The notes under the pieces were generated by a model. It was given only the letters and a program-made list of their open reading frames with translations, did not search any database and was not told the DNA's origin. Below are positions 40,633 through 57,801 of a stretch of DNA of 64,000 bases, one piece after another. How positions within the stretch are numbered: the stretch's first letter is position 1; every line of letters begins with the position of its first letter. The translations under genes and the position numbers were made by a program. This DNA is from Micromonospora echinospora (lineage in GTDB: Bacteria; Actinomycetota; Actinomycetes; Mycobacteriales; Micromonosporaceae): the NCBI RefSeq assembly GCF_014203425.1, contig NZ_JACHJC010000001.1, forward strand, positions 496,001-560,000. The letters are read 5' to 3'.

Positions 40633-40709
40633 ATGTCGAGGCCGACACGCGGTAGCCGCCTCTACGCACGTCTAGCCTGGTCGCTAGAGAACCCGATACT
40701 GTGCGATTC

Positions 40710-41945: not shown

Positions 41946-41979
41946 CGGCTCAGGCCACGCCGGCCCAGATAGCGTCGGC

Positions 41980-42528
41980 TCAGACCCGCGACCACGGCGG
42001 CGGGAAGACCACCTCGCCGGACGGGGGCGGCGGCTCCTCGCTCGCCGACGGCGGCAGCACCAGCGCCTGCCACGGCTCGCCCAGCCCGGACCAGGGGCTG
42101 GTCAGGCCCAGCCGGTCCGCCGGGCCGAACCCGAACCGCCGGTAGTACGCCGGGTCGCCCAGCACCACCACCAGCCGCTCGCCCAGCTCGGTGGCCGCGT
42201 CGAGCGCCGCCTGCACCGCCGCCGTGCCGTGACCGAGCCGCTGCCGGTGCCGCGCCACGGCCACCGGGCCCAGAGCCAGCGCCGGCCACACTCGGCCGTC
42301 GTCGGTGCGTACCCCCACGCGCGTGAGCAGCGCGTACGCCACCACCTCGCCGCCGTACTCGGCGACCATGGCCAGCTCGGGAATCCACGCCGGGCTGTGC
42401 CGCAGCTCCTCGACCAGGCCGACCTCCGGCGGGGTGGCCACGTCGGGCCGGGCGAAGGCGGCGGCCAGCACCCGGGCCACCGCCGGCTCGTCGGCCGGGC
42501 CCTCCGGGCGTAGTCGCAGCGTCGTCAC
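41980..42528 (-). CDS. GNAT-family N-acetyltransferase
   Basis: A 182-residue GNAT acetyltransferase. N-terminal TLRLRPEGPADEPAVARVLA, central ALGPVAVARHRQRLGHGTAAV (acetyl-CoA pyrophosphate loop, R-x-x-GHG) and VVVLGDPAYYRRFGFGPADR, the YYxRFGF motif of the YjbC/predicted acetyltransferase subgroup. The acceptor is unknown. GTG 42528 is the start in a frame that is open much further upstream, so the exact start is uncertain. It is convergent with the AAA ATPase gene. Confidence 0.83.
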   Translation of the reverse strand: MTTLRLRPEGPADEPAVARVLAAAFARPDVATPPEVGLVEELRHSPAWIPELAMVAEYGGEVVAYALLTRVGVRTDDGRVWPALALGPVAVARHRQRLGHGTAAVQAALDAATELGERLVVVLGDPAYYRRFGFGPADRLGLTSPWSGLGEPWQALVLPPSASEEPPPPSGEVVFPPPWSRV

Positions 42529-42663
42529 CCGCGCGACCTTACCGAACGCGACCGGTCCATCCGCGACTGTCGCTGAAATCGATACCGTCCGGACGTCCAC
42601 GTCGGCCGATACCTTTCGTGTGTTGCGGGGATGACGACGCCCGCGACGGGGTAAGACTGAGCC

Positions 42664-43209
42664 ATGAAGCCCGTGCGTTCCCTCGCCCGAGTCATGTTGA
42701 GCGGCATCTTCGTGGTCAGCGGTGCCCGCAACCTGCAGAACCCGGAACGGCTGGTGCAGGCCGCGGAACCGGTCACCGGGAAGGTCGCCCCGCTGATCCG
42801 CAACGTCCACCCGCGCATCCCCACCGACACCGTGTCGCTCATCCGGGCCAATGCCGCCACCCAGCTCGTCGGCGGCCTGATGCTGGCCACCGGCCGGTTC
42901 ACCCGCCCGGTGGCGCTGGTGCTCGCCGGCTCCCTGATCCCGACCACGGCCGCCGGTCACGCCTTCTGGAAGAACGACGACCCGGCCGCGCGCAACAACA
43001 ATCAGGTCCACTTCCTGAAGAACCTCGGCCTGCTCGGTGGCCTCCTCCTCGCCGCCGCCGACACCGAGGGCAAGCCGGGGCTGCGCTGGCGCGCAGGCCA
43101 CCGGATCGACCACTCGCGCCGGTCGGTCAAGCGCGCGGTACGCACCGCGCGGCGCGACGCGAAGATCGCCGTACGCTCCGCGGCGACCGCCCGCAGAATG
43201 CCTGGCTGA
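42664..43209 (+). CDS. DoxX family membrane protein
   Basis: A 181-residue DoxX protein with four hydrophobic helices: RSLARVMLSGIFVVSGARNL (family start), about 60-78, 82-103 and 118-135. The FVVSGARNLQNPERLV and HFLKNLGLLGGLLL segments are characteristic. DoxX proteins are inner-membrane proteins linked to thiol/redox stress in mycobacteria, but no partner is adjacent. The C-terminus is strongly basic. ATG 42664 follows a TAAGACT box (leaderless pattern). Confidence 0.85.
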   Translation: MKPVRSLARVMLSGIFVVSGARNLQNPERLVQAAEPVTGKVAPLIRNVHPRIPTDTVSLIRANAATQLVGGLMLATGRFTRPVALVLAGSLIPTTAAGHAFWKNDDPAARNNNQVHFLKNLGLLGGLLLAAADTEGKPGLRWRAGHRIDHSRRSVKRAVRTARRDAKIAVRSAATARRMPG

Positions 43210-43414
43210 CAGCCCTTCCGTACGGCCACCACCCCCCGCAAGGCCACCAATCACCTGAACCGTCCGAGACCCGTTAACGCGGTGGAAATGTCGCAAACAC
43301 GTGTGGGATCGGACACGGTCGCGTAACGCGGGAGGCAGCAACGTGAGGCGCCGTTCTAGGCTCCGTTCTGGACCTGGACGGGTACGACGATCTTGGTACG
43401 GGGGTGGCCACGCC

Positions 43415-44836
43415 ATGCCGACGTCAGTCGGTAGACGGACCAACCGCCTCGCCCCGACCTCCCGCGTCGACCGCCGGACCGTCGTGCGCCTCGGCGTCGT
43501 GGCCACCGTGTCGTACGTCGCGTGGCTGGCCATCAGCGCCTTCGGACGGCCGTACAACTTCTTCGACATGAAGATCTACCACGGCGCGGTGGTGTGGTGG
43601 GCCAGCGGCAACGAGCTGTACGACTTCGTCGCGCCGTCGACCACACTGGGCTTCACCTACCCGCCGTTCGCCGGCCTGGTCATGCTGCCGATGTCCTGGC
43701 TGCCGGTCGACGGCGCCGGTTTCGTCAACGCGCTGGCCAGCATCGGCGCGCTCGCGGTCGTCCTGGCGGCGCTGCTGCGCCCCATCGTGGACCGGCTCGG
43801 CTGGCCGCTCTGGTTCACCGTCGGCATCGCCACCCCGCTCGCGGTGGCCATCGAGCCGTCCCGGGAGACGCTCGGCTACGGCCAGGTCAACCTGCTGCTG
43901 TTCGCGCTGATCATGGCCGACATGGTGGGCCTGCGCTGGCGCGCCAAGCGGGGCACTCACCACGAGACCGCCGACTCGCCGCTGGCCCGGTTCGTCTACA
44001 GCGGCGCCTGGGCGGGCGTCGGCATCGGGCTCGCGACCGCCGTCAAGCTCACCCCGGCGCTGTTCGTCGCCTACCTGATGCTCACCCGGCAGTGGCGGGC
44101 CGCGCTCACCGCTGTCGGCACCACGATCGGCGTGACCATCGCGTCGTTCGGTATGGTCGGCGAGGAGTCCCGCGCCTATTTCACGAGCGTGCTGTGGCAG
44201 ACCGAGCGGGTCGGTGCGGCGGACATGACCGCCAACCAGTCCCTCGCCGGGCTGCTGGCGCGGCTCTACGACTCGATCGAGACGCCCGGTCTGCTCTGGC
44301 TCGCCTTTTCGGTGCTGCTCCTGGCGCTGGGCCTGTCCCGGGCGATCAGCGCCCGCGCCGACGGCGACGAGCTGACCGCGTTCACACTCGTCGGGCTCAC
44401 CGCCAACGTGATCAGCCCGATCTCCTGGTCGCACCACCTGATCTGGGTCATCCCGGCGATCATCGTGCTGGCCGACGCCGCGGTACGCCGCCGCGACGCC
44501 AGCCGTGGCCTGCCCCTGCGCGGCAGCGGGCCCTCGGCCAACGGGGTGCCCGCGCTGCGCCCGCCCATCTGGTACCCGACGCTCACCGGGCTCCGCCACG
44601 GCGCGGGCGCGCTCGGGCTCTACCTGCTGTTCCTGATCTCACCGATCTGGCCGTACGAGCACCAGCTCCCCGAGGTGTCCCACTACCAGGACGGCCTGTT
44701 CGGCGCGCTCATGGAGAACTCCCTGGCCATCGCGCTGATCGTGCTGGTCGCGGCGCTGCCGTGGCGTCCGGGCGCCGAGCCGGCGTTCTACCACGACCGG
44801 TTGAGCCGAGCCGCCGCGCTCGCCGCCCGGCGCTGA
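43415..44836 (+). CDS. GT87/DUF2029 polyprenol-phosphate-dependent glycosyltransferase
   Basis: A 473-residue polytopic protein of the GT-C fold. After the first helix comes FFDMKIYHGAVVWWASGNEL (the conserved Asp of the first outer loop), then GFTYPPFAGLVMLPMSWL, GYGQVNLLLFALIMADM and ISPISWSHHLIWVIPAI, which fit the alpha-mannosyltransferase family DUF2029/GT87 (PimE, AftC relatives). It would transfer a sugar from a polyprenyl donor on the outer membrane face. The acceptor is unknown. ATG 43415 is preferred; GTG 43343 behind GGAGG would add 24 Arg-rich residues. Confidence 0.82.
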   Translation: MPTSVGRRTNRLAPTSRVDRRTVVRLGVVATVSYVAWLAISAFGRPYNFFDMKIYHGAVVWWASGNELYDFVAPSTTLGFTYPPFAGLVMLPMSWLPVDGAGFVNALASIGALAVVLAALLRPIVDRLGWPLWFTVGIATPLAVAIEPSRETLGYGQVNLLLFALIMADMVGLRWRAKRGTHHETADSPLARFVYSGAWAGVGIGLATAVKLTPALFVAYLMLTRQWRAALTAVGTTIGVTIASFGMVGEESRAYFTSVLWQTERVGAADMTANQSLAGLLARLYDSIETPGLLWLAFSVLLLALGLSRAISARADGDELTAFTLVGLTANVISPISWSHHLIWVIPAIIVLADAAVRRRDASRGLPLRGSGPSANGVPALRPPIWYPTLTGLRHGAGALGLYLLFLISPIWPYEHQLPEVSHYQDGLFGALMENSLAIALIVLVAALPWRPGAEPAFYHDRLSRAAALAARR

Positions 44837-44840
44837 GCCC

Positions 44841-45305
44841 TCAGGGGCAGTTCACCCATTCCTCGGTGCCGTCGTCGAAGACCTGCCGCTTCCAGATCGG
44901 CAGCCGCGCCTTGACCTCGTCGACCAGCCGTGCGCACGCGGCGAACGCCGCCGCCCGGTGCGCCGTGCTGACCGACGCCACCAGCGCCACGTCGCCGATC
45001 TCCAGCGGGCCGATCCGGTGCGACACCGCGACCGCGTACACCGCCGGGTCGGCGGCGACCTCGGCCGCCACCTCGCGCAGCACCACCTCGGCGGTGGGGT
45101 GGCCCTCGTACTCCAGACGGGTGACCCCCCGCCCGTGGTCGTGGTCGCGAACCACGCCCTGGAAGGACACCACCGCGCCGGCCCGGCGGTCGGCGACCGC
45201 CGCCTCGTGCGCGGCCAGGTCGAGCGGCCGGTCGGTCACCGCGCCGAGCACCACGCCTGCCTCCACAGTCACGACGTCTCCCGTCGGCTCGTTCGTCGCG
45301 CTCAT
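44841..45305 (-). CDS. moaE: molybdopterin synthase large subunit
   Basis: A 154-residue MoaE. Seen: AGAVVSFQGVVRDHDHGRGV (substrate loop), LEYEGHPTAEVVLREVA, VSHRIGPLEIGDVALVASVS (catalytic region), HRAAAFAACARLVDEVKARLPIWKRQ with the active-site Lys residues, and DGTEEWVNC. It pairs with MoaD to insert two sulfurs into precursor Z. Its ATG overlaps the moeA stop (ATGA), so it is the last gene of the moaC-mog-moeA-moaE operon. It is convergent with the GT87 gene, with a 4-bp gap. Confidence 0.93.
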   Translation of the reverse strand: MSATNEPTGDVVTVEAGVVLGAVTDRPLDLAAHEAAVADRRAGAVVSFQGVVRDHDHGRGVTRLEYEGHPTAEVVLREVAAEVAADPAVYAVAVSHRIGPLEIGDVALVASVSTAHRAAAFAACARLVDEVKARLPIWKRQVFDDGTEEWVNCP

Positions 45306-46561
45306 CCGGCACGCTCCCCGGGGGTCAGCGGCAGCGGCACGAGCGGCACCCGGTCGCCGGCCGCGCCGCTGGTGCCGGGCCGGATCACCGCGAAACCGTC
45401 AGCGCCCGCGAGACCCCGCAGCATGGCCGAGCCGACGTGCCGCACCGGGTACGCGGTGCCGGCGATCCGGTCCCAGCGGGCCAGCGCCAGATGGGTGTAG
45501 TCGCCGCGCCCGGGAATCGGCTCGGCCAGCGTCACGTGCGGCAGCACCGGCATCGGCCGGCCGGTGAGGCCGGCGAGCAGGGGCGCGACGAGCGACACGA
45601 GCGCCACCACCGCGGACTGCGGGTTGCCGGGCAGGCCGGCCACGAACCGCACCCGCCCGTCGGCGTCCACCAGCCGGGCGAGCAGCATCGGGAAGCCCGG
45701 GCGCACCGCCACCGTGTTGACCACGTAGTCGGCGCCGAGCGCCTCCAGCGTCGGGTGCAGGTGGTCGACCGGCCCGTGCATGGTGCCGCCGGTGGTGCAG
45801 ACCAGGTCGGCGTTGGCGAGCGCGCCACGCAACGCCGCCACGTGCGCGGGCAGCGTGTCGGCGACCGGGCCGACCACGTCGGCCGTACGCACCTGGCAGC
45901 CGTAGCGGCGCAGCCAGGCGGGCACCGACGGGCCGAGCGCGTCGCGGACCCGGCCCGCGCCCGGCGGACCCGAGGTGAGCAGCTCGTCGCCGAAGACCAG
46001 CAGCGCGGCCCGGGGCGGGCGGCGGACCCGCAGCGTGTCGTGCCCGCAGGAGGCGGCCAGGCCGATCACCGCCGGATCCACCGGCGTGCCGGCGGGCAGC
46101 AGCTCCTCCCCGACGTACGCCTCCTCGCCCGGTTCCCGCCACTCCGGCTGGGTACGGGGCGTGCCGGTCACCAGGCCGTCCGCCGTGCGGGCCGAATCCT
46201 CGATCCGCAGGATCGCGGTCGTGCCCTCGGGAACCATCGCGCCGGTGGCGATCTCGACAGTGGTGCCGTCGGCCTCCAGCGGCGGCGCGGTGTGCCCGGC
46301 GAGCACCCGCCCGACCACCCGCCACGGCCCCGGCCCACGCACCGCCCAGCCGTCCACGCTGGACGTGGGGAACGCCGGCAGGTCGGTACGCGTCGTCAGC
46401 GGCTCGGCCAGGGTGTGCCCGTCGGCCTCGGCCAGCGGGCGGGCGACGGCGGGGAGCGCGGCGGACAGGCCCACCGCGTACACCCGGGAGCGGGCCTCCT
46501 CCCACCCGGCCGGGGGTGGCGTGGCCGCCTCGGCCGCGGCGGCTTCGGTTTCCGTGCTCAT
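45302..46561 (-). CDS. moeA: molybdopterin molybdotransferase
   Basis: A 419-residue MoeA, which inserts molybdate into adenylylated molybdopterin. Seen: FPTSSVDGWAVRG, VEIATGAMVPEGTTAI, PAGTPVDPAVIGLAASCG, VCTTGGTMHGPVDHLHPTLE, VRPGFPMLLARL, and FVAGLPGNPQSAVVALVSLV. Domain order (I-II-III-IV) and length are normal. Its stop overlaps the moaE start. The mog gene is 37 bp upstream on the same strand. Confidence 0.93.
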   Translation of the reverse strand: MSTETEAAAAEAATPPPAGWEEARSRVYAVGLSAALPAVARPLAEADGHTLAEPLTTRTDLPAFPTSSVDGWAVRGPGPWRVVGRVLAGHTAPPLEADGTTVEIATGAMVPEGTTAILRIEDSARTADGLVTGTPRTQPEWREPGEEAYVGEELLPAGTPVDPAVIGLAASCGHDTLRVRRPPRAALLVFGDELLTSGPPGAGRVRDALGPSVPAWLRRYGCQVRTADVVGPVADTLPAHVAALRGALANADLVCTTGGTMHGPVDHLHPTLEALGADYVVNTVAVRPGFPMLLARLVDADGRVRFVAGLPGNPQSAVVALVSLVAPLLAGLTGRPMPVLPHVTLAEPIPGRGDYTHLALARWDRIAGTAYPVRHVGSAMLRGLAGADGFAVIRPGTSGAAGDRVPLVPLPLTPGERAG

Positions 46562-46598
46562 CCGGCGAGCCTAGCGCCGGGGCACGCGGCCCGCGGGT

Positions 46599-47069
46599 TC
46601 AGTGGTCGCCGCCGCGAAGCTGGTCGACGGCGTGCCGCAGGATCGGCCCGAGCACCGCCAGGCCGTCGCGGGCGCCGCCCCGCGAACCGGGCAGGTTGAC
46701 CACGAGCGTCCGGCCGGTCACCCCGGCCAGCCCTCGGGACAGCGCCGCGGCCGGCACGGTGTCGCGGCTGTACGCGCGGATCGCCTCGGCGATGCCGGGA
46801 ATCTCGTAGTCGAGCAGCGCGCGGGTCACCTCGGGCGTGCGATCGGTCGGGGTGATGCCGGTGCCGCCGCTGGTCAGCACCACGTCGACGCGCTCCTCGC
46901 GGGCGGCGAGCAGCGCCTGACCGACCGGGTCGCCGTCCGGCACCACCACCGGCGGGTCGACCTCGCAGCCCAGCTCGCGCAGGCCGGTCACGAGCAGCGG
47001 GCCGCTGGTGTCCTCATACACCCCGGCGGCGGCCCGGTTGGAGGCCACGATCACCCGGGCCCGGATCAC
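46599..47069 (-). CDS. mog: MogA/MoaB-family molybdopterin adenylyltransferase
   Basis: A 156-residue MPT-binding protein. Seen: RVIVASNRAAAGVYEDTSGP, VVLTSGGTGITPTDRTPEVT (MPT-binding loop), EIPGIAEAIRAYSRDTVPAA and TLVVNLPGSRGGARDGLAVL. It adenylylates molybdopterin before MoeA acts. The GTG start (47067-47069) overlaps the moaC stop (47066-47068), giving translational coupling. MogA versus MoaB cannot be separated from sequence alone. Confidence 0.9.
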   Translation of the reverse strand: MIRARVIVASNRAAAGVYEDTSGPLLVTGLRELGCEVDPPVVVPDGDPVGQALLAAREERVDVVLTSGGTGITPTDRTPEVTRALLDYEIPGIAEAIRAYSRDTVPAAALSRGLAGVTGRTLVVNLPGSRGGARDGLAVLGPILRHAVDQLRGGDH

Positions 47070-47557
47070 GGCCGGTCCTCCGGCCGGACCCACTCGCCGG
47101 TCTTGCCGCCCTCCTTGCGGAGCACCCGGACGGCCTCCACCGAGGCGGCCGGGTCGACCGCCTTGACCATGTCGACCAGGGCGAGGCCGGCGACCGCCAC
47201 CGCGGTCAGCGCCTCCATCTCGACGCCCGTTCGGTCGGCGGTCTTCGCGGTGGCGGTGATCTCCACCGTGTCGGTGGTGAGGTCGAGGTCGACGGTGACG
47301 CCGTGCAGCGCGATCGGGTGGCAGAGCGGGATCAGGTCGGGCGTGCGCTTGGCGCCCATGATGCCGGCGAGCCGGCCGACGGCGAGCGCGTCGCCCTTGG
47401 GCAGGCCGTCGCGGCGCAGCAGCTCGACCACCTCGGCGGTGGTGCGGAGCCGGCCGGCGGCGACCGCGAGCCGGCCCGACACCGGCTTGGCGGAGACGTC
47501 GACCATCCGGGCCGCACCGGCCGGGTCGACGTGGGTGAGCTGCGCGGGTTCGGTCAC
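47066..47557 (-). CDS. moaC: cyclic pyranopterin monophosphate synthase
   Basis: A 163-residue MoaC, which completes precursor Z from the MoaA product. Seen: HVDPAGAARMVDVSAKPVSGR, GDALAVGRLAGIMGAKRTPDLIPLCHPI (active-site Lys and His), TADRTGVEMEALTAVAVAGL and DMVKAVDP. It is the first gene of the minus-strand Mo operon. Just upstream of it lies the decayed SARP-type gene on the same strand, so the moaC promoter must be within or close to that remnant. Confidence 0.94.
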   Translation of the reverse strand: MTEPAQLTHVDPAGAARMVDVSAKPVSGRLAVAAGRLRTTAEVVELLRRDGLPKGDALAVGRLAGIMGAKRTPDLIPLCHPIALHGVTVDLDLTTDTVEITATAKTADRTGVEMEALTAVAVAGLALVDMVKAVDPAASVEAVRVLRKEGGKTGEWVRPEDRP

Positions 47558-48349
47558 GGCCCGACCCTATCCGCCGGGTACGACGACGCGCGGCCGTCGG
47601 CGCGGAGGAGCGCCGCTGCCAGCGGTTCGACCTGCGGGTTGTCCGCGGCGTTGTCGAGCACCACGATCGCGGATCTCGTGGCCACTTCCCGTCGCCACAT
47701 CTCCAATCGACCGGGCAGTTCCATCGGTATCCGGCCGGCCGGCACACCCATGTGGCGAAGAAGGATGTCAAGCGATGGGGCAGGCGTCAGCCACGTGTCC
47801 TCGGTGTGGCCGCGCAGGCCGGCCGCGAGGCCAGGTGCAGGGCAGGAGTCGTCTTGCCGCAGCCCGCCATGCCGTCGATCAGGCGGATCGTCGGGCCGCT
47901 ACCCGATCGCTCGCTCACGTCGTGCAATAAGCGATCGAAATTTCCTTCCGACCGACGAAATCCGGCTCCGCTACGGGACCGCCTGCGCCGGCTCTCCCGC
48001 CCGCATCAGTTCCCGAGCGCGGGCCAGCGCGCGGTCAGCCGGTACAGGGTCGATGAGGCTCTCGTCGGCGAGGAGCCGGTAGCCACCCGGCTCACGGACG
48101 ATCCTGAGCCTGTCGTCCGCGTGCGAGTCGAGGCTGCGCCGCAGGTTGCCGGCGTAGGTCCGGCCATTGGCAATCGTGGAGCGGGGCGGATCGTCGGGCC
48201 ACAACTCGTCCACCGGGTCGTGCATCGGGACCAACTGATTGGCCCGCACGACCAGCAGCGCCAGAACCAACTGCTGTTCGGGGCGTTCCAAGCGAGAGGT
48301 CCGTGGTGCCGATCCGCACCGCCAGACCACCGACAACCTGGATTTCCAT
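47554..48349 (-). pseudogene. decayed SARP/AfsR-type regulator
   Basis: Pieces of one regulator lie in order in different frames. ATG 48349 begins EIQVVGGLAVRIGTTDLSLG; a frame change at the G4 run 48280-48283 joins it to QLVLALLVVRANQLVPMHD, then DELWPDDPPRSTIANGRTYA and LRIVREPGGYRLLADE, an OmpR-type DNA-binding domain. The BTAD domain is missing after a stop at 47971. A third frame (about 47920-47830) has DRLLHDVSERS and Walker A IDGMAGCGKTT. A further shift leads to GLRGHTEDTWLTPAPSLDIL, MGVPAGRIPMELPG and the Walker-B-like SAIVVLDNAADNPQVEPL. At least three frameshifts and a large deletion make it non-functional. Confidence 0.82.
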
Positions 48350-48769
48350 GCTGCTGTTCCAGCCTCAATCGGCTCCTGTCCACGGGCACACGGGAGCGCA
48401 ATGGATTAGTCACAAACCCGTTGCCCCATCAGCGGTCTGGCACACCGACGCCACTCTCGTCCGACCCGGCGGTGAAAGCCGTCCAAACCACGGTTGTAAT
48501 GTTCCGCCGCCACGACGACGCTACAGGCGACGTAAGGCACCTCAGGCCATTCCCATGGCGCTGAGCGACTGCGCGGGTACATGAAGGAGACGATCGGCTC
48601 CGCTCCGCATACAGCCCGTGGACACAACGTCATTTACTCCGCAATAGTTACTTATATTGCGCATACCGACATTAATGCTTTCTTATCGCCCTGCCTACGC
48701 TCTAACCTGCTCTTACAAGACAGGGGCGCCACAAAGCGCCAAGAGAGATATGCGAGGAGGGTCGTGACA

Positions 48770-48793
48770 ATGCGCAGCACCGAATGGAACTGA
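48770..48793 (+). CDS. heptapeptide minigene MRSTEWN, copy 1
   Basis: ATG-CGC-AGC-ACC-GAA-TGG-AAC-TGA encodes MRSTEWN. GAGGAGG at 48754-48760 lies 9 nt upstream, an excellent ribosome binding site. A small hairpin precedes it. The copy 84 bp downstream encodes the same peptide with a synonymous Arg codon. A 70-codon frame from ATG 48581 also ends in this peptide, but copy 2 has no such extension, so the seven-residue product is favoured. Length, the Met-Arg start and the C-terminal Asn recall microcin C-type precursors; no MccB-like gene is in the window. Confidence 0.55.
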   Translation: MRSTEWN

Positions 48794-48853
48794 CGAACCC
48801 TTTGGGCATCAAGCAACCACGACCCGTTTTCGATATCCGAGGAGGGCGACAAA

Positions 48854-48877
48854 ATGCGTAGCACCGAATGGAACTGA
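48854..48877 (+). CDS. heptapeptide minigene MRSTEWN, copy 2
   Basis: ATG-CGT-AGC-ACC-GAA-TGG-AAC-TGA encodes MRSTEWN again. GAGGAGGG at 48839-48846 lies 7 nt upstream. Going upstream in frame there is no ATG, GTG or TTG before the stop of copy 1, so this peptide can only begin here. The single nucleotide difference inside the coding part (CGC/CGT) is silent, while the 38-bp spacer between copies has no similarity. That pattern points to selection on the peptide and its ribosome binding site. Confidence 0.55.
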   Translation: MRSTEWN

Positions 48878-48951
48878 GAGTTCTCATATTCCCGGCGAAG
48901 GGGTAGGCTGCCGCTCATCGCATTCCGACGGTGAGCGGCGGGTGATGCCGG

Positions 48952-51486
48952 TTGAGCCGAACAGCGGACGGCCGACAAGCCGTCGAGCCCACGCTGCGCG
49001 TAATCGTGTCCACCTTGAGCGTATGCGCGACGTTCGTCGCGCTCGCCGCACTGATCGCCGTCTGGACAGAGCCACCGGACTCCGTACGTGACCTCGTCAC
49101 CGTCACGACCCTGGTGGTGACGGTCGCCCTGGCCACAGTCATCAAAACCCCGGTGCGCATCCGGTCGACCACAGTGGCCTTCGCCTGGGTCGAGACCGCG
49201 ATCGTCATCGGTCTCGCCGTCGCGCCGGCCTCCTGGCTGATCCTGGCAACCGGCATCGGCGTAGCCTGCGGATCGGTCACGCGACTCGCGCCCATCAAGA
49301 CCGCATTCGGCGTCGCGAAGCACACGTTGGTCGCCGGGGGCAGCACTCTCGTCATCCTGCTGCTCGGCAACGCGTGGCCGCCCCGCGAGCCGCTCCAGAT
49401 CGTGCTGCTGCTGGGAGTCGTCTACCTAGTCGCGGCCGTGCTCGACGACCTACTCGCGATTCCGGTCATCGCGCTCGCGTCCGGAACGCCCATCATGCGG
49501 CAGTTCCGCACCGACCTCGACCTGCGGATCGCGGGATTCGCAGTCCGCTTCCTGGTGGCCGCCTGCACCGTACTCATCCTGCGGGCCGACCCCCGACTGC
49601 TGCTCGCCGTACCGGCACTGGTGCTCAGCCTGCACCTGGCCTACTCCACGCGGATCCGCAGCCGAACCGAACAGCAGGCGTGGCAACGACTCGCCCGCGC
49701 CACCGACGCGCTCAACGTGGTCGACCTCGACCAGGTGCTGACCACCGCCGTCACCGAAGCCAGCGAACTCTTCTCCGCCGACGAGATCGAGATCGAGCTG
49801 CGCGAGGGCGGACGCACCGTCCGCGGCAACGCCGCAGGCATCGCGTACGACGGAACGTCGCCCCAGCCCAGTGACATCGACGGCCGGGTCATGCCGGTCG
49901 CGCTGGAAGGCCACAACCGCACCGACGACCTCGGCGTGCTGCGACTGCGGTTCGCCGGTCCGGTCGAGCTCTCCGAGCGGGAGCAGTACACCCTGCGTAC
50001 CTTCGCCTCCGCCCTCTGCACCGCGGTCCGCAACGCCCAGGCGTACGCCGAACTCGCCCGCATCGCCCAGGACCACGCCTACGCCGCCACCCACGACGCC
50101 CTCACCGGCCTGTCCAACCGGCGGCACCTGCTGGACGAGGGCAGCGCCCAGCTCACCACCCGGCACGCCGACGGCGTCACCGCGCTGGTGCTGATCGACC
50201 TCAACCACTTCAAGGAAGTGAACGACACCCTCGGCCACGGCGCCGGTGACCGGGTGCTGATCCAGGTCGCCGAGCGGCTGCGCCGCGCGGCCCGCCCCGA
50301 CGACCTGGTCGCCCGGCTCGGCGGGGACGAGTTCGCCGTGCTGCTGCGCGGCCTGCCCGCCCCGGCCGTCGCCTCCCACCGCGCCGAGGCCCTGCTCAAC
50401 GCCCTGCACGATCCGCTCGACGTGGACGGCATGCGAATCAGCGTGGAGGCCAGCGGCGGCATCGCCGTCGCCCCCGCCACCGGCGGGATGCCCGAGTTGC
50501 TGCGCCGCGCCGACGTGGCCATGTACCAGGCCAAACGCGCCGGCCAACGCCTCGCCACCTACGCGCCCGCCCGCGACACCGCCGACCTGAGCCGGCTCAC
50601 CCTCGGCGGTGAACTGCCCCGCGCCGTCGCCGACCACGAATTCACTGTCAACTTCCAGCCCATCGTCGACCTCGCCAGCGGCGAGGTGATCGGCGCGGAG
50701 GCCCTGGCCCGCTGGCACCACCCCACCCACGGGCTCATCGACCCGCTGCGCTTCCTCGAAGCGGTGGAACGCTCCGGGCTGCTGCCCGCGTTCGCCGAGG
50801 CGATCCTCGACCAGGCGCTCATCGCCGCCTGCTCCTGGCGCGACGCCGGCTTCGACCTGCCCGTCTCGGTCAACGTGTCCCCCCGCAGCCTGCTCGACGC
50901 CCGTTTCCCCGGCGCGGTGCTGGCCCGGCTGCGCGCCCACGACCTCCCGCCGGACCGGCTCGTGCTGGAACTGACCGAGACGCTCACGCTCAGCCAGCTC
51001 GACGTGGTCGACCGCGTCCTCAGCCGGCTGCGCGACTCCGGCGTCCGCCTGGCGCTCGACGACTTCGGCACCGGATACTCGTCGCTCTCCCTGCTCTCCC
51101 GCATCCCCGTGCACGAACTGAAGATCGACCGCAGCTTCGTCACCGCCATGGAGACCACGCCCGAGGCCGCCGCCGTCATCCGCTCCACCCTCGACCTCGG
51201 CCGCAGTCTCAACCTCACAGTCGTCGCCGAGGGCGTCGAGAGCGAACCCCAGCGCCGCGCCCTCTGGGAACTCGGCTGCGCCGCCGGCCAGGGCCACCTG
51301 TTCGCCCGGCCACTGCCCGCCGCCGCGCTGCTCGCCAGCCTCCAACGCGGCCACGGCGGCCGGACCGGCGCGCTCGCACCCGCACTGCACGACGCAGGCG
51401 CCGTGATCCGCCTCCCCGGACGCCGCGCCGGCGGTGCCCGCACCCGCCCGAACACGTCCGCCGCCGGCGACTCCCGGCAACCCTGA
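48952..51486 (+). CDS. membrane-anchored GGDEF-EAL cyclic-di-GMP protein
   Basis: An 844-residue protein. Residues 1-230 hold about seven hydrophobic helices (a MASE-like sensor). About 250-365 is a GAF-like region. The GGDEF domain follows (ATHDALTGLSNRRHLL, DLNHFKEVNDTLGHGAGD, RLGGDEFAVLL), with an intact active site. The EAL domain shows FQPIVDLASGEVIGAEALARW, VNVSPRSLLD, LELTETLTL, LALDDFGTGYSSLSLL and VVAEGVES. Key residues look intact in both, so it may make and degrade c-di-GMP. TTG 48952 is the only usual start upstream of the first helix. The C-terminal 45 residues are disordered. Confidence 0.85.
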   Translation: MSRTADGRQAVEPTLRVIVSTLSVCATFVALAALIAVWTEPPDSVRDLVTVTTLVVTVALATVIKTPVRIRSTTVAFAWVETAIVIGLAVAPASWLILATGIGVACGSVTRLAPIKTAFGVAKHTLVAGGSTLVILLLGNAWPPREPLQIVLLLGVVYLVAAVLDDLLAIPVIALASGTPIMRQFRTDLDLRIAGFAVRFLVAACTVLILRADPRLLLAVPALVLSLHLAYSTRIRSRTEQQAWQRLARATDALNVVDLDQVLTTAVTEASELFSADEIEIELREGGRTVRGNAAGIAYDGTSPQPSDIDGRVMPVALEGHNRTDDLGVLRLRFAGPVELSEREQYTLRTFASALCTAVRNAQAYAELARIAQDHAYAATHDALTGLSNRRHLLDEGSAQLTTRHADGVTALVLIDLNHFKEVNDTLGHGAGDRVLIQVAERLRRAARPDDLVARLGGDEFAVLLRGLPAPAVASHRAEALLNALHDPLDVDGMRISVEASGGIAVAPATGGMPELLRRADVAMYQAKRAGQRLATYAPARDTADLSRLTLGGELPRAVADHEFTVNFQPIVDLASGEVIGAEALARWHHPTHGLIDPLRFLEAVERSGLLPAFAEAILDQALIAACSWRDAGFDLPVSVNVSPRSLLDARFPGAVLARLRAHDLPPDRLVLELTETLTLSQLDVVDRVLSRLRDSGVRLALDDFGTGYSSLSLLSRIPVHELKIDRSFVTAMETTPEAAAVIRSTLDLGRSLNLTVVAEGVESEPQRRALWELGCAAGQGHLFARPLPAAALLASLQRGHGGRTGALAPALHDAGAVIRLPGRRAGGARTRPNTSAAGDSRQP

Positions 51487-51526
51487 CCCCGCGGGACCAC
51501 CGCGCCGGTCTGCCAGACTGGCCCGC

Positions 51527-52870
51527 GTGACCGCCCACGCCGACCCCGCGACCCCCGTCTCCCGCCGCTGGTCGGCACTCGACACCGCAGCCGGTGGCCT
51601 CGCCCTCGACCTGGGCCTCTACGCCACCGCCACCGTCTTCGCCGCGATCACCGCCGCCACCTCCACGCTGCCGCCGCACCGCGCCTGGGGCACCGTCGCT
51701 ACCATCGGGTACGCGCTCGCCACCCTCGCGGCGACCGCGCAACTGCTCGCCCGCCGCCGCGCCGCCGGCACACCCCTGGCCGCGCTGCCGGCACGCTGGA
51801 CGGTCACCGGAATCACCTGGGCCACCACCGCGCTGCTCCCGATCGTCACGCAGAGCCTCGAACGGGCCGGCGGACGCACCGACCGCGCCCAGGAGGAGGT
51901 GATCGTCGTGGAGAACGCCGGCACCCGCCTCGCCGAGCACGGCACCCCCTACCTCGGCCCCGACGCCATCGCCGCGCTGCCCCCCGGCGAACAACTCCTC
52001 GGCTACACCCCCTACCAGCCCGGCATGGCGCTGTTCGGGCTGCCCCGGGCCGCAGTGGACGCCTGGTGGACCGACGCCCGCATCTGGTTCGCCGTGGTCA
52101 CCGCGCTCACCCTGATCGCCCTCGTCGCCACGCTGCGCGCCGCCGGTGGCCCCGCCGCGCCCCGCCGCGACGCCGCCGTGCTGCGCGCCGTCCAGGCCGC
52201 CACCGTCCTGCCCATCTGCGCGCTCACCCTGGCCACCGGCGGCGACGACCTGCCCGTACTCGCGCTCTGCCTGCTCGCCCTCGCGCTCGCCGCCGCCGGA
52301 CACCCCGGCCGCGCCGGTCTCGCGATCGGCGCCGCCGGCGCGCTGAAACTCTTCGCCTGGCCGATCGCCCTCGTCCTGCTCTTCTGGGCCGCCACCCGCC
52401 GCGCCACCCTGCGCACCGCCCTCGGCGCCCTCGGCCTACCCGTCCTCGCGCTGGTCCCGGTACTGCTCGTCGACCGCGACGCCCTCGTCGAGAACGTCCT
52501 GCGCTTCCCCCTCGGCCACGGCATGGTGACCAGTCCCGCCCAGTCGCCCTTCCCCGGGCACCTGATCGCCGAGACGCTCCCGGCCGGCCGGGCGATCGCC
52601 GCCGCGCTGCTCGTCGCCGCCGGAGTCGCGATCGCCGTCCGGCTGCTGCGCCGCCCGCCCCGCACCGCCGTCACCACCACGATCATCTGCGGGTACGGGC
52701 TGCTCGCCGCGATCCTCCTCATGCCCTCCACCCGCTTCGGCTACCTGCTCTACCCGGCCGCGCTGCTCGTGCTCGCCCCGGCACTGGCGCTCACCCGACC
52801 AGCGGACCCGACGGCATTCCCGGCAACCGCCCCGCGCGACCCGGCCGGAAGGCGTACACCTGAGGGATGA
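51527..52870 (+). CDS. polytopic membrane protein (GT-C/DUF2029-like)
   Basis: A 447-residue protein with about eleven hydrophobic helices. A periplasmic loop (DRAQEEVIVVENAGTRLAEHG, then TPYLGPDAIA and YTPYQPGMALFGLPRA) sits after helix three, the position of the catalytic loop in GT-C glycosyltransferases. Later segments GHPGRAGLAIGAAGALKLFA and PAQSPFPGHLIAE resemble DUF2029-type proteins. The acceptor is unknown. GTG 51527 is chosen as CAGACT ends 7 nt upstream. Its stop overlaps the next ATG (ATGA). Confidence 0.7.
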   Translation: MTAHADPATPVSRRWSALDTAAGGLALDLGLYATATVFAAITAATSTLPPHRAWGTVATIGYALATLAATAQLLARRRAAGTPLAALPARWTVTGITWATTALLPIVTQSLERAGGRTDRAQEEVIVVENAGTRLAEHGTPYLGPDAIAALPPGEQLLGYTPYQPGMALFGLPRAAVDAWWTDARIWFAVVTALTLIALVATLRAAGGPAAPRRDAAVLRAVQAATVLPICALTLATGGDDLPVLALCLLALALAAAGHPGRAGLAIGAAGALKLFAWPIALVLLFWAATRRATLRTALGALGLPVLALVPVLLVDRDALVENVLRFPLGHGMVTSPAQSPFPGHLIAETLPAGRAIAAALLVAAGVAIAVRLLRRPPRTAVTTTIICGYGLLAAILLMPSTRFGYLLYPAALLVLAPALALTRPADPTAFPATAPRDPAGRRTPEG

Positions 52871-53499
52871 CCACCTACCGCGACCGGGCCGAGGCGGGAC
52901 GGGATCTCGCCGAGCGCCTGACCGACCTCGCCGGCCGACCCGACGTCATCGTGCTCGGCCTGGTCCGCGGCGGCGTACCCGTCGCCCAGGTGATCGCCGA
53001 CCGGCTCGGCGTACCCCTCGACGTGCTCGTCGTCCGCAAGCTCGGCGTGCCCTGGGCGCCCGAGGTCGCGTACGGCGCACTCGGCCCCGGCGGTGTGCAG
53101 GTCCTCAACGAGATGGTCGCCGGCCGGATCAGCGAGAACGACCGCGCTCAGGTCCGCCGCCGCGAACAGGCCGAACTGGAACGTCGTGAGCAGCGCTACC
53201 GCGCCGGCCGCCCGCCGCTGGACCTCACCGGACGCACCGCCGTCGTCGTGGACGACGGACTCGCCACCGGCGCCACCGCACGTGCCGCCGTCCAGGTCGC
53301 CCGCCACCTCGGCGCCGCCCGCGTCCTGGTCGCCGTCCCGGTCGGCTCCGAGCAGGCGTACGAGATGCTCGCGTCCGAAGCCGACACGGTCGTGAGCTGC
53401 CAACTCCCGCCCGACTTCGCCGCCGTCGGCGCGTACTACGAGGACTTCCACGAGGTCTCCGACGACGAGGTGACGCAGGCGCTGACCGCCACTGCGTGA
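52867..53499 (+). CDS. phosphoribosyltransferase family protein
   Basis: A 210-residue type I PRTase-like protein. The PRPP-binding motif reads AVVVDDGLATGATARAAVQ; the N-terminus has DVIVLGLVRGGVPVAQVIAD and LDVLVVRKLGVPWAPEVAYG. These are typical of the predicted phosphoribosyltransferases (DUF/COG1926) that are often fused or next to hydrolases; the nucleobase is not known. ATG 52867 overlaps the upstream stop, so translation is coupled. Confidence 0.83.
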   Translation: MTTYRDRAEAGRDLAERLTDLAGRPDVIVLGLVRGGVPVAQVIADRLGVPLDVLVVRKLGVPWAPEVAYGALGPGGVQVLNEMVAGRISENDRAQVRRREQAELERREQRYRAGRPPLDLTGRTAVVVDDGLATGATARAAVQVARHLGAARVLVAVPVGSEQAYEMLASEADTVVSCQLPPDFAAVGAYYEDFHEVSDDEVTQALTATA

Positions 53500-53522
53500 A
53501 AACACCCGGTACCGTCGTTGTC

Positions 53523-53918
53523 ATGCAGATGACCTGTCCCAAGTGCCGCGGAGAAATGCGCCAGTACGAGCGCAGCGGAGTAGTCATCGACCAGTGCGGC
53601 GAATGCCGGGGCATCTTCCTCGACCGCGGCGAGCTGGAAAAGCTGTTCGATGCCGAGGCCAACTGGAACCAGCAGCACGGCGGCGCCCGGCAGGCCGCGC
53701 CCTCCGGCGCCGGCTACCCGCCGCCCCCGCCGCCCCCGCCCGCCGCCGCGCCGCACCAGCCCGGCTACGGCGCCGTCCCCCCGCCCCCTCCTCCGCCGCC
53801 GCCCGGCCACGGCTATGCGCAGCCCGCGTACGGCCACAGCCAGCAGCAGCACTACGGCTACCACGGCCACTACCGCCGGAAGAAGAAGCACGGCTTCCTC
53901 GGCGAACTCTTCGACTGA
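53523..53918 (+). CDS. zinc-ribbon (TFIIB-type) protein with poly-Pro linker
   Basis: A 131-residue protein. The N-terminus has TCPKCRGEM and DQCGECRGIFLDRGELEKLF, a zf-TFIIB-type zinc ribbon (two CxxC pairs) with the conserved FLDRGELEKL helix. It continues with poly-Pro tracts (residues about 70-77 and 90-98), a His/Tyr/Gln-rich region and a basic end (RRKKKHGFLGELFD). The C-terminal KKHGFLGELFD also recurs in this family. Function is unknown. Confidence 0.82.
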   Translation: MQMTCPKCRGEMRQYERSGVVIDQCGECRGIFLDRGELEKLFDAEANWNQQHGGARQAAPSGAGYPPPPPPPPAAAPHQPGYGAVPPPPPPPPPGHGYAQPAYGHSQQQHYGYHGHYRRKKKHGFLGELFD

Positions 53919-54723: not shown

Positions 54724-57405
54724 TCAGACGATGGCCATGTCCACGAAGCGCGACAGGTGCAGCTGTGCCGCGACCGTCACCGTGTCGGTCGGCCCATTCC
54801 TGTGCTTGGCGATGATGAAGTCCGCCTCGCCCGCGCGCGGCGACTCCTTGTCGTAGTAGTCGTCGCGGTGCAAGAGGATGACAACGTCTGCATCTTGCTC
54901 AATCGAGTTGTGCGCGGCGATGCCGTTGGCGATGAAGTTGTGTGTGCCGAGCACCGTGGCGTCGTAAACGTCCTTCTCGCCGACTGACTCGATCGAGACG
55001 ATCTCGTCCCAGAAGACATCGTTCGTCGCGTGCAGATCAAGATCCGCAGAGTCCAGCACCGCGGCCACCTTGGCGAGACGAGACCGGCTGGGCGCATGCT
55101 TCCACATCACGCTGCCGGAGAACTGGGTGCCGACCGCGGCCGCAAACTTTCGGTGGCTCATCTTGCGTTCCGCCAGGACCTCTCGGACCCGTGACCACAC
55201 CTCCGTGGGCACGGTGTCCACGTTGGGGTTGCTGACGACGGATTCGAGAATCACCAGCAGCGCTGCGCAGCCGTTGGCGCGCTCGCCGTGCACACCGATC
55301 TCTCGAAGGAAACGGAGCTGGTCATCGCGACCAGAGATGTCCAGGGTGTACTGCGGCCGGTGTCGAGCGACCGGAACCTGTCGCAATCGAGCCGAGATTC
55401 CGTAGCGAAGCAGCAGGCGTGAAATGTCCTCCAGCATGCGCCGCGACGTCGAGGAAAAGTAGACCCGTCCGCCTCGACCAGACTTGTTGACGGTTACGGA
55501 CCCGTCCGTCGCCCAGATGTGCCGCAGGAAGAGCGTGATCTGCGCTTTGGGCAGGCCGAACACCGCTTGAGGTACGAACTTTTCGTGGGACCGCAGCCCG
55601 AACAGCCCCAAGCCGTCCAACCACTCAGCGATCGGGTTCCGCCGCCCGCGGGCGAGCCGGAATGGTGCCGGTAGCCGGAGCGTGGTCACTCGGGCAGCCG
55701 GATAGTCGTCTCGCACAGCCGTGATCCCGAAATGCGTCGCGGCCTCCGTCACGGCCGCCAGGTTGGCCTCGTCACAACTGGCGTAGCGGATCGGCTGCCG
55801 GCGGACGAACGAGCCGTCTCCGAGGAGGTGAGCCAGCATTACCACCTCTGGCTCGGCCCACGGCTGAATGTTCAGTGGCGGCGGAATGTGCCGAGGCGCG
55901 GCAAGCCGGGTCCCCACCGTGAGTTCTTCCAGTGGCAGCCAACCACCGAACGTGAGGAATGGGTGGTTGGCGGTCGCTTCCACTTGCTTCCCGGATGAAA
56001 GTGTCATCCGGAACACTTCGCGTGTCCCACTGGGAAAGGCGTGCGTGAGCGTCCGGGGGGTGTAGCGGAGACCTTCGTCGAGGGCCCAGACTGGGATGTC
56101 CCTGACATTCCCGGCCAGGAGTGCCCCGAGGGTGATCTCCGAGTTGTCATCGGCTCTGACGAGTCTCGTATCCGCCGTCAGACAGCCCGACTCACGCAGG
56201 TCGGAAAGCTGGGGACGCTTGTCAGTCCGCTGCTCCGGGCCACGGTTCAGCTGACTCACCGCGATCACCGGGCACTCAACTTCCTTGGCCAGCAGCTTCA
56301 GGCCACGGGACAGGTCCGCGACCTCCTGCTGCCGACTCTCGGTGCGTTTCGGTGAGGTCATCAGCTGGAGATAGTCGACCACGATCAACTTCAGATCGTG
56401 CTTCTGCTTGAGCCGCCGCGCCTTCGCCCGGATTTCCATCAGGTTCATGCTCGGCGTGTCGTCGACGAAGAGCGGTGCCTCGCTGATCTCGCCCATGCAG
56501 CGGGCCAGCTTGGTCCAGTCGTCGTCGGAGAGCTGCCCGCTGCGCAGCACGTGCAGCGGTACGCGCGCCTCGGCCGAGAGCAGTCGCATGACGATCTCGA
56601 CCTTGCTCATTTCCAGCGAGAAGATCGCCGCCGCCTGATTGGCGCGGATGGCCGCATTTCGGGCAAAATCCATAGACGCCGTTGATTTTCCGAGACCAGG
56701 CCTGCCTGCAACAATAATAAGTTGGCCGGCGTGCAGGCCGTTGAGCAGCCGGTCCAGGTCGGTGAAGCCGGTCGGCACACCGGTCATCATCCCGCCCTGG
56801 GCGCCGACCGCCTCGATCTCGTCGAGCGTCGGTTGGAGCATGTCGGCCAGGACCGCGAAGTCCTCGCTGACGCGCTTCTCGGTGATCTCGTAGACGGCCT
56901 GCTGGGCGAGGTCGACGATGTCGTCCACGTCGCGGCTGCCGCCCTGGCCGGTGCCGTAGCCGAGCTGCACGATCCGGGTGCCGGCCTCGACCAGGCGGCG
57001 GAGCACCGCTCGTTCGCCGACGATGCGGGCGTAGTAGGCGGCGTTCGCGGCGGTGGGCACGCTGGCGATGAGTGTGTGCAGGTAGGGCGCGCCACCGATG
57101 CGGGCGAGGTCGCCGGAGTCGGCGAGCGCGGCGGCCACCGTGATCGGGTCGGCGGGTTCGCCGCGTCCGTAGATGTCGAGGATCGCGTCGAAGATGGTGG
57201 CGTGGACGGGGCGGTAGAAGTCGTTGGTCTTCAGGATCTCCACGACGTCCGCGATGGCGTCCTTGGAGAGCAGCATGCCGCCGAGTACGCACTGCTCGGC
57301 GGCCACGTCCTGCGGCGGTGTCTTCTCGAACGCCGTATCGCGCGGCGGCGGCTCGGACGGCTGTCCCCCGGTCCGTTCCGCACGCGTCTCGTCGGTGACC
57401 GACAC
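54724..57405 (-). CDS. dnaB: replicative DNA helicase DnaB, intein-containing
   Basis: An 893-residue precursor whose extein is 467 residues. N-terminal domain: PPQDVAAEQCVLGGMLLSK, PVHATIFDAILDIYGRGEP. Helicase domain: Walker A IVAGRPGLGKSTASMDFARN, Walker B LIVVDYLQLM, DLRESG, then after the intein SIEQDADVVILLHRDDYYD and HRNGPTDTVTVA. It unwinds DNA at the fork. GTG 57405 follows AAGGGGGG by 6 nt; frames open further upstream are not conserved. It is the distal part of the rpsF-ssb-rpsR-rplI-dnaB region, separated from rplI by an oppositely directed gene. Confidence 0.93.
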   Translation of the reverse strand: MSVTDETRAERTGGQPSEPPPRDTAFEKTPPQDVAAEQCVLGGMLLSKDAIADVVEILKTNDFYRPVHATIFDAILDIYGRGEPADPITVAAALADSGDLARIGGAPYLHTLIASVPTAANAAYYARIVGERAVLRRLVEAGTRIVQLGYGTGQGGSRDVDDIVDLAQQAVYEITEKRVSEDFAVLADMLQPTLDEIEAVGAQGGMMTGVPTGFTDLDRLLNGLHAGQLIIVAGRPGLGKSTASMDFARNAAIRANQAAAIFSLEMSKVEIVMRLLSAEARVPLHVLRSGQLSDDDWTKLARCMGEISEAPLFVDDTPSMNLMEIRAKARRLKQKHDLKLIVVDYLQLMTSPKRTESRQQEVADLSRGLKLLAKEVECPVIAVSQLNRGPEQRTDKRPQLSDLRESGCLTADTRLVRADDNSEITLGALLAGNVRDIPVWALDEGLRYTPRTLTHAFPSGTREVFRMTLSSGKQVEATANHPFLTFGGWLPLEELTVGTRLAAPRHIPPPLNIQPWAEPEVVMLAHLLGDGSFVRRQPIRYASCDEANLAAVTEAATHFGITAVRDDYPAARVTTLRLPAPFRLARGRRNPIAEWLDGLGLFGLRSHEKFVPQAVFGLPKAQITLFLRHIWATDGSVTVNKSGRGGRVYFSSTSRRMLEDISRLLLRYGISARLRQVPVARHRPQYTLDISGRDDQLRFLREIGVHGERANGCAALLVILESVVSNPNVDTVPTEVWSRVREVLAERKMSHRKFAAAVGTQFSGSVMWKHAPSRSRLAKVAAVLDSADLDLHATNDVFWDEIVSIESVGEKDVYDATVLGTHNFIANGIAAHNSIEQDADVVILLHRDDYYDKESPRAGEADFIIAKHRNGPTDTVTVAAQLHLSRFVDMAIV
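54907..56184 (-). mobile_element. intein with LAGLIDADG homing endonuclease in DnaB
   Basis: A 426-residue in-frame insert begins with Cys (CLTADTRLV) and ends in His-Asn (GTHNFIANGIAAHN), followed by Ser of the extein. Block B is VEATANHPFLTFGGWLPLEE with the conserved Thr-x-x-His. Two LAGLIDADG-type motifs, LAHLLGDGSFV and LRHIWATDGSV, mark a homing endonuclease; the Asp residues are present. The insertion lies between DLRESG and SIEQDAD, the same site as the well-known Ssp DnaB intein. Codon usage is less GC-biased than the extein. Confidence 0.93.
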
Positions 57406-57801
57406 GGGTGCCCCCCTTGCTGCGTCGGATCGAGTCCAGCTGTATCGCTGGGGTGTGACAACTTCCGCCGACCCCTCCGGTCGATCGGGGGTCATCGTCC
57501 GGCGGTCGGGGGACCACGATACGGAACCCGAGGTCAGCGACTCAACAAGGCCGGTGGATGAGCCTCGGGACAACCTGTGGACGCCTGGGGACCGGCATGT
57601 GCGCAGGGTGTGCACAGGGTGTGGAAAAGTGATGGGGAATTCCGGTCGCATCGCCTCTGACCTGGCCTTTTCCTGTCCCCACCCTGTGGACGGAAGATTT
57701 CCGGCCGAGCTTTGTCGTCGTTCGTCCCGTACTATCGCTGCGAACGGCGACACCTGGGACAGCGGGTTTACTTTCGGGTTGAGAGAGGTCACGCTCCGGC
57801 C
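57406..57801. other. 396-bp divergent region with DnaA-box-like sequences
   Basis: No gene is supported. It contains four sequences like reversed DnaA boxes: TGTGGACGC (57576-57584), TGTGCACAG (57609-57617), TGTGGAAAA (57620-57628) and TGTGGACGG (57685-57693); the actinobacterial consensus in this orientation is TGTGGACAA. A -10-like TACTAT lies at about 57731-57736, for the plus-strand gene, preceded by AT-richer sequence. Promoters of dnaB and the following gene must be here. Confidence 0.55.

Follow-up and report, generated by a model that had tools for sequence, protein, structure and literature searches.

A seven-codon minigene conserved upstream of a GGDEF-EAL gene in Micromonosporaceae, a candidate leader open reading frame

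Introduction

The 64,000-nt stretch of Micromonospora echinospora DNA analysed here (the window) contains two very short open reading frames (ORFs) that encode the same heptapeptide, MRSTEWN, and lie upstream of a membrane-bound GGDEF-EAL gene on the + strand. The question raised by this locus is whether ORFs of seven codons are genes at all and, if they are, whether the peptide or the act of translating it matters to the cell. The original prediction held that selection on a seven-residue product had shaped both copies and, as a hypothesis, read them as precursors of the microcin C type, with a regulatory leader or a P450-modified minimal peptide as alternatives.

Extremely short ORFs that evade automatic detection, as the present ones do, are also described in the accessible text on the five-residue precursors of biarylitides. 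These precursors are under selection and are present in actinomycetes. Unlike them, the peptides described below mostly carry one aromatic residue, and there is no P450 among the scanned neighbours.

Results

Two minigenes with one product

The features of the window on which the analysis is based are the following.

48754-48760, + strand: Shine-Dalgarno (SD) sequence GAGGAGG of copy 1, 9 nt before its ATG (from the sequence)
48770-48793, + strand: minigene copy 1, 24-bp ORF ATGCGCAGCACCGAATGGAACTGA, product MRSTEWN (from the sequence)
48839-48846, + strand: SD sequence GAGGAGGG of copy 2, 7 nt before its ATG (from the sequence)
48854-48877, + strand: minigene copy 2, the proximal copy, 24-bp ORF ATGCGTAGCACCGAATGGAACTGA, product MRSTEWN (from the sequence)
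48952-51486, + strand: GGDEF-EAL c-di-GMP enzyme with an N-terminal membrane domain, 844 aa from a putative TTG start (Pfam)

The paired identical ORFs and their strong ribosome sites are present in the sequence as predicted, and it was confirmed that the two coding parts differ by one base only, which is silent. Pattern searches of the 7.1-Mb genome returned both ORFs as the sole matches to ATG-N8-CGANTGG-NNN-TGA, and the three matches to GAGG-N4-11-ATG-N12-TGG-NNN-TGA all lie over the same two ORFs. No match was obtained in a plasmid search with the minigene cassette, nor in an Rfam search with the minigene region at E<=1.

A microcin C-type pathway would call for an adenylyltransferase of the MccB/ThiF kind, and the genome search for one gave two ThiF-domain proteins that passed the cut-off, one of them MoeZ/MoeB-like and the other unassigned; both are encoded megabases away (5.44 and 6.92 Mb) from the minigene at 0.545 Mb. 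The P450-modified peptide found no support either, as none of the nine neighbouring genes scanned (40701-53918, genes rather than every frame) is a P450.

The minigene in Micromonosporaceae

Among 354 genomes of the family, 7 contain the exact peptide pattern; all belong to the window's genus, and in the six other than the window's own it again lies just upstream of the orthologous GGDEF-EAL gene. The N-terminal domain of the enzyme was found at E<=1e-20 in 153 of 160 genomes of the genus, and the sequence upstream was read for 110 of the 153 loci. A pattern with a Met-Arg start detected a minigene in 94 of the 110 regions, while the remaining 16 have minigenes with other starts (e.g. MYGSDWG, MKGSEWA, MSAHEWL and MTSNEWG), which were spotted by eye and confirmed with a general pattern. 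The minigene is likewise present in 66/66 named loci (65 Micromonospora and one Plantactinospora mayteni), a set that overlaps the 110 genus regions. For the second genus (g4), the enzyme was matched in 67/67 genomes with a sensor domain about 35% identical, and the 40 orthologous loci inspected all carry a minigene, with peptides including MRGSNEWG, MKSNDWH, MNVHDWE and MYGEKEWG. In the two genera together, a minigene of 7-8 codons with Trp next to last lies upstream of this gene in every inspected region (150/150; 110 of the genus and 40 of g4). Its presence in every inspected locus of two genera indicates a real, selected gene.

Altogether 164 ORFs were counted, with one nested start counted twice (L041); 143 of them have 7 residues and 21 have 8 (one being the nested start). 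An acidic residue precedes Trp in 160 of the 164, and the SD spacing is 5-8 nt in 135 of 153. The last residue is Asn, which the microcin C reading had singled out, in only 32 of the 164, and 13 other residues occur there.

Tandem copies

A single copy is the rule and the duplication seen in the window the exception, two tandem minigenes being found in 13 of the 150 regions (12 in the genus, 1 in g4); a fourteenth region flagged as having two copies contains a nested ATG and was left out. Tandem copies occur in separate lineages, namely two clades of the genus, one g4 locus and one f19 gene. The CGC/CGT difference between the copies is kept in four of the five closest relatives, and in the close relatives L016, L017, L018 and L020 the distal copy looks decayed by eye while the proximal one is intact. 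In all 13 two-copy regions both copies end in the identical residue, which varies by species (N, T, D, G). Such matched ends are easier to reconcile with a trans-acting product or with gene conversion than with a last residue free to vary; they hint that the product itself counts, with gene conversion as the alternative.

Codon-level selection

All 150 regions contain an ORF of 6-8 codons in which Trp is the penultimate residue and an SD sequence, loosely defined, precedes the start, as against 0.31% of dinucleotide shuffles (60 per region) and 0/150 reverse strands. As the search pattern itself demands Trp, the invariance of this residue applies to at least one such ORF per region.

Nucleotide changes were then counted by Fitch parsimony on the tree of the 66 named loci, using the proximal copy. 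The Trp codon TGG shows no change, and start and stop show one each. Over positions 1-3, codon 2 has 3/4/11 changes and codon 5 has 1/1/12, so that 11 of 18 and 12 of 14, respectively, fall in the third position, where they are silent or exchange D and E. The counts are 2/1/5 for codon 3 and 3/9/2 for codon 4, the latter with 12 amino-acid changes within polar residues. Codon 7, with 16/15/11 changes and 27 changes of the codon as a whole, evolves nearly as fast as the downstream flanking bases (15-24 changes each, about 20), as against 5-9 changes in the best-kept bases of the SD sequence. Relatives also have in-frame insertions of whole codons (MRNSTEWD, MRKSTEWT), and stops are exchanged among TGA, TAG and TAA. 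In all 66 loci exactly one sense codon follows the Trp codon before the stop; Trp was a requirement of the pattern, which every locus satisfied. A fixed distance between Trp and the stop, combined with a nearly free last residue, is as expected if the state of the ribosome at termination matters. The codon-level changes, together with the comparison with shuffles, support the view that selection acts on the minigene as a translated seven-residue product, and in this respect the original prediction appears to have been right.

The conserved unit that emerges by comparison consists of an SD sequence, 7-8 codons in the family (6-8 when others are included), Trp next to last, a nearly free last residue and a stop.

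Association with one gene

Minigenes were also found upstream of the orthologous GGDEF-EAL gene in four further families. The class sample of 296 genomes gave 39 matches in other families, of which 27 are given here as loci inspected and 12 weaker ones were left out. A minigene with Trp next to last is present in 7 of the 27 (MSKMWA, MSKDWK, MRSTSWN, MRDTYWG, the GTG-started MNAGVSWG twice and the GTG-started MSLTEKWG), and one MNAGVSWG adjoins a second copy, MNTGVSWG. The other 20 homologues are without it; several of these score above some minigene-bearing ones, and four of the 20 contigs end 268-423 nt upstream of the gene. A follow-up survey covering 35 and 5 genomes of two orders yielded 24 loci, some of them previously inspected, with MNGVSWG twice (one without a clear SD sequence) and a GTG-started MSNWIWG as new cases and no minigene in 18. 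Short frames ending in W without an SD sequence at early-ending contigs (L178, L316) were left out of these counts. On a tree of the class-level homologues, several branches of which are weak or long, the other-family loci with a minigene lie scattered. Unlike in Micromonosporaceae, an acidic residue before Trp is not near-constant in these families.

In all cases found, the minigene is positioned upstream of this GGDEF-EAL gene and on the same strand. It is missing from 10/10 loci of weaker homologues in the two genera, which were taken as paralogues, and from all seven genomes of the genus without the enzyme (no match at E<=1e-20), where the seven-codon form with [D/E]-W and TGA was sought. 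Four pattern matches in three of the enzyme-less genomes all lie inside longer open frames without an SD sequence, while the expected minigene site was recovered in 7/7 positive-control genomes.

The neighbourhoods were compared by grouping ORFs of at least 90 codons with high third-position GC into groups of at least three loci. Several neighbours (moaC, moeA, GT87 and others) are common to the Micromonosporaceae loci; only the GGDEF-EAL gene, with antisense frames over it, groups the loci of the family with five loci of other families. This group is joined by 14 of 15 comparison loci, and the fifteenth, L291, also has the gene. Three of the five loci from other families have one more ORF in common, an MFS-type transporter adjoining the GGDEF-EAL gene, which is not common to the Micromonosporaceae loci.

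L289, 8257-9588, - strand: MFS-type transporter
L290, 5317-6816, + strand: MFS-type transporter
L293, 9415-10842, + strand: MFS-type transporter

The membrane domain of the enzyme

Pfam identifies both output domains of the enzyme (GGDEF, E=4.6e-42; EAL, E=1e-69). The structure of the N-terminal 287 residues was modelled and aligned to ECF S-components. The modelled domain matches the fold of solved S-components, with 8-13% sequence identity to the best-aligned chains, so the sensor domain is predicted to have the fold of these vitamin-transporter subunits. The combination of an S-component-like membrane domain with GGDEF-EAL outputs is discussed for this fold, and S-component-fold receptors (5TMR-SHK with GGDEF/EAL outputs) show the same domain combination as the present enzyme; a leader ORF of the kind proposed here is absent from the discussion in the part of that source available (PMC11109136).

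A second, distant relative of the sensor domain is encoded in an 847-aa frame of the same genome (G000:C1:1565393-1566220), and no minigene lies upstream of it.

Sequences around the minigene

Three further elements surround the minigenes of the window.

48657-48672, + strand: conserved box TTGCGCATACCGACAT, putative activator site of P1
48680-48708, + strand: putative promoter P1, TTCTTA (48680-48685), 17 nt, TAACCT (48703-48708) (by eye)
48904-48909, + strand: TAGGCT, candidate -10 hexamer of a promoter P2 in the interval from minigene to enzyme gene

The box TTGCGCATACCGACAT occurs exactly once in the genome, with four more places at 2 mismatches, as against five for the reversed control. 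A strict pattern detected a related short box (CATANNGACA and two close variants) in 75 of the 110 regions of the genus and in 16 of 30 from g4; a TANNNT hexamer begins 31 nt downstream of the box end in 63 of the 75 and 13 of the 16. A TANNNT between box and minigene is also common in shuffles (66% for the genus, 35% for g4); its presence is therefore uninformative, and the fixed spacing alone counts. Within 75 nt after the minigene stop, TANNNT occurs in 110/110 and 28/30 regions compared to 29% and 27% of shuffles. From their sequence and placement, the two TANNNT elements may belong to a promoter P1 with a bound activator and to a promoter P2. The -35 elements of both were assigned by eye only, and a sigma-70 consensus scan reported neither P1 nor P2 and one site further upstream, at 48619-48648.

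No terminator-like site was found on the + strand between 48350 and 49000. In 140 regions the 95 nt before the minigene, a stretch that includes bases before the presumed transcript start, fold more stably than shuffled sequence (mean z -1.45, 49% below -1.5); for the RNA after the minigene the difference from shuffles is slight (mean z -0.49, 21% below -1.5). A hairpin by the start codon was seen to shift its register among 18 close relatives when these were compared by eye. Given the weak folding, the lack of a terminator in that interval and the slipping register, a downstream attenuator or a hairpin masking the ribosome site finds no support as a conserved element.

Two minor observations were made by eye. 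Most g4 loci (L126-L155) have a GTCGCGAC palindrome after the putative -10 element of P1, and in several loci (L131, L132, L135) the presumed leader is nearly complementary at its 5' end to the SD stretch of the minigene, as if translation of the minigene itself were masked.

Discussion

The minigene is most likely a built-in control peptide for the enzyme rather than an antibiotic precursor. The regulatory leader, one of the alternatives of the original prediction, fits best: a conserved short ORF, whose translation is suggested by codon-level selection, stands upstream of one conserved gene and on its strand, and an unchanged Trp codon lies at a fixed distance from the stop throughout the 66 loci, as the critical residue of an arrest leader would. 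This reading is further supported by the link to a single gene, as the minigene is absent from paralogue loci and enzyme-less genomes, and by its position before the GGDEF-EAL gene in four other families despite differing neighbours. Judged from the sequence comparisons, there is about an even chance that the minigene is a translated leader ORF acting in cis, with a Trp-x-stop end that turns termination into a regulatory step.

In such a system, a long transcript from P1 would carry the minigene ahead of the enzyme gene, and a ribosome finishing M-x-x-x-(D/E)-W-x would meet the stop with Trp one residue behind the peptidyl bond. The speed of termination could then be set by a condition of the cell, be it free tryptophan, a small molecule or drug in the tunnel, or the state of tRNA or release factors, and the paused ribosome might alter the enzyme yield per transcript via RNA folding, access of Rho or re-initiation. 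P2 would give a basal, minigene-free transcript; because it is placed between minigene and enzyme, part of the enzyme mRNA may be without the minigene. Several results count against the leader ORF: the missing terminator on the + strand of 48350-49000, the failure of the sigma-70 scan to report P1 and P2 and the weak RNA structure downstream, but also the changes of codon 4, which mostly replace the residue, the matched ends of double copies and the loci without a minigene in the class-level and follow-up samples. To our knowledge, the arrest peptides studied to date depend on more residues than one Trp.

The nearest precedent for a Trp-x-stop mechanism, by analogy, may be MsrDL (MYLIFM). According to the available part of PMC10314930, this six-residue leader ORF lies upstream of one gene, msrD, as the minigene does, and acts at termination by stalling at its own stop codon through hindrance of release factors; its effect depends on the residues and is weaker with an additional codon ahead of the stop. 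The same source describes it as macrolide-induced and followed by an intrinsic terminator, whereas no terminator was seen here, and the two peptides have no sequence likeness (PMC10314930, available part). A role of tryptophan itself recalls another leader peptide, TnaC. There a Trp in the nascent chain is indispensable, and arrest takes place at a stop codon; TnaC is several times longer than the minigene peptide, a 7-mer with, unlike TnaC, Trp next to last. Metabolite-sensing arrest peptides of the TnaC kind are leader peptides through which ribosomes respond to L-tryptophan, as stated in the accessible portion of PMC8429421. A search of the open-access literature brought up no description that we recognised as this leader ORF.

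The main rival to the leader ORF is a peptide acting in trans, in which the heptapeptide, perhaps formylated, is the product, made in quantity through reiterative translation of the seven-codon message and serving as a signal or a ligand, perhaps of the S-component-like sensor domain. We regard this as unlikely, though it has arguments on its side: the minigene stays at 7-8 codons, a length shared with microcin C minigenes, in which seven codons favour repeated translation (PMC6495379, in the part available), tandem copies occur in separate lineages and end alike in 13/13 regions across differing species, the membrane domain of the adjoining enzyme is predicted to have the fold of a small-molecule receptor, and the MFS-type transporter stands beside the gene in three other-family loci. 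Against it, the last residue is near-neutral, most positions differ from one family to the next, the MFS gene is not shared by the Micromonosporaceae loci, and the constant order, strand and closeness to one gene would be needless for a trans product. A special form, in which the formylated heptapeptide, fixed in length, marked by its tryptophan and made by reiterative translation, is a self-made ligand of the sensor and reports the translational state or tryptophan supply to c-di-GMP signalling, seems improbable. Hardly better are the prospects of a narrow tryptophan attenuator, in which a shortage of charged tRNA-Trp would hold the ribosome at the single UGG and so change enzyme output, and the sensor might bind tryptophan or a relative too. 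UGG is indeed the only codon without any change, and all 150 regions conform to the Trp pattern that the search required, but the several Trp codons of a trp-type leader are not found: each of 78 distinct peptides has one, with two in one distant case (L298). Moreover, no terminator/antiterminator pair was found, the downstream gene is not a Trp gene, and waiting at UGG leaves the exactly one following codon unexplained.

Far less credit is due to a conserved DNA or RNA element, an operator or a structured RNA, that merely resembles an ORF. The stretch before the minigene is somewhat structured, but the third-position changes in codons 2 and 5, the whole-codon insertions, the exchanges of stops and the conservation of the SD sequence, as well as the empty Rfam search, speak against it. 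Lowest of all stands a microcin C-like peptide-nucleotide precursor or a P450-modified minimal RiPP, which we consider hardly conceivable. Its appeal lay in the species of the window, where the peptide has seven residues, a strong SD sequence, a Met-Arg start and an Asn end. MccA minigenes have, as here, 7 (rarely 8) codons, a strong SD sequence and an otherwise variable sequence, and all microcin C precursors in the survey concerned end in Asn, as far as its available text goes (PMC6495379). MccA has a C-terminal Asn and mccB as its neighbour; in the family the last residue varies almost freely, the window copies with their Asn notwithstanding, and the partner is the GGDEF-EAL gene, with no ThiF-family gene near the minigene; the microcin C-type reading was abandoned on these grounds. 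As for a RiPP, no modification gene was seen to link the loci of the family with the five inspected ones of other families, and a P450 is lacking among the nine scanned neighbours. The resemblance in length to microcin C may have a shared cause, the translation of a seven-codon message, without kinship.

With seven codons and a spread over a genus, a second genus and parts of the class, the minigene would be among the shortest gene families with comparative support in bacteria. Trp, length and ribosome site are fixed and the rest is variable. The leader ORF would probably be a translational checkpoint ahead of a c-di-GMP enzyme, a class whose input signals are often unknown, and point mutations in one codon make the question testable. 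ORFs of this size that lack annotation can be brought to light by looking for short frames that persist ahead of a single gene.

Other frames in the window

Two observations concern the surroundings of the locus. The short, broken-looking frames at 47640-48350 (- strand) gave on reading the impression of remnants of a regulator/ATPase gene, and a 121-aa frame among these coordinates (47971-48336, - strand) had no match in a Pfam scan. Further downstream, the frame at 54724-58158 (- strand) in the ORF list reads like a replicative DNA helicase, presumably interrupted by an intein.
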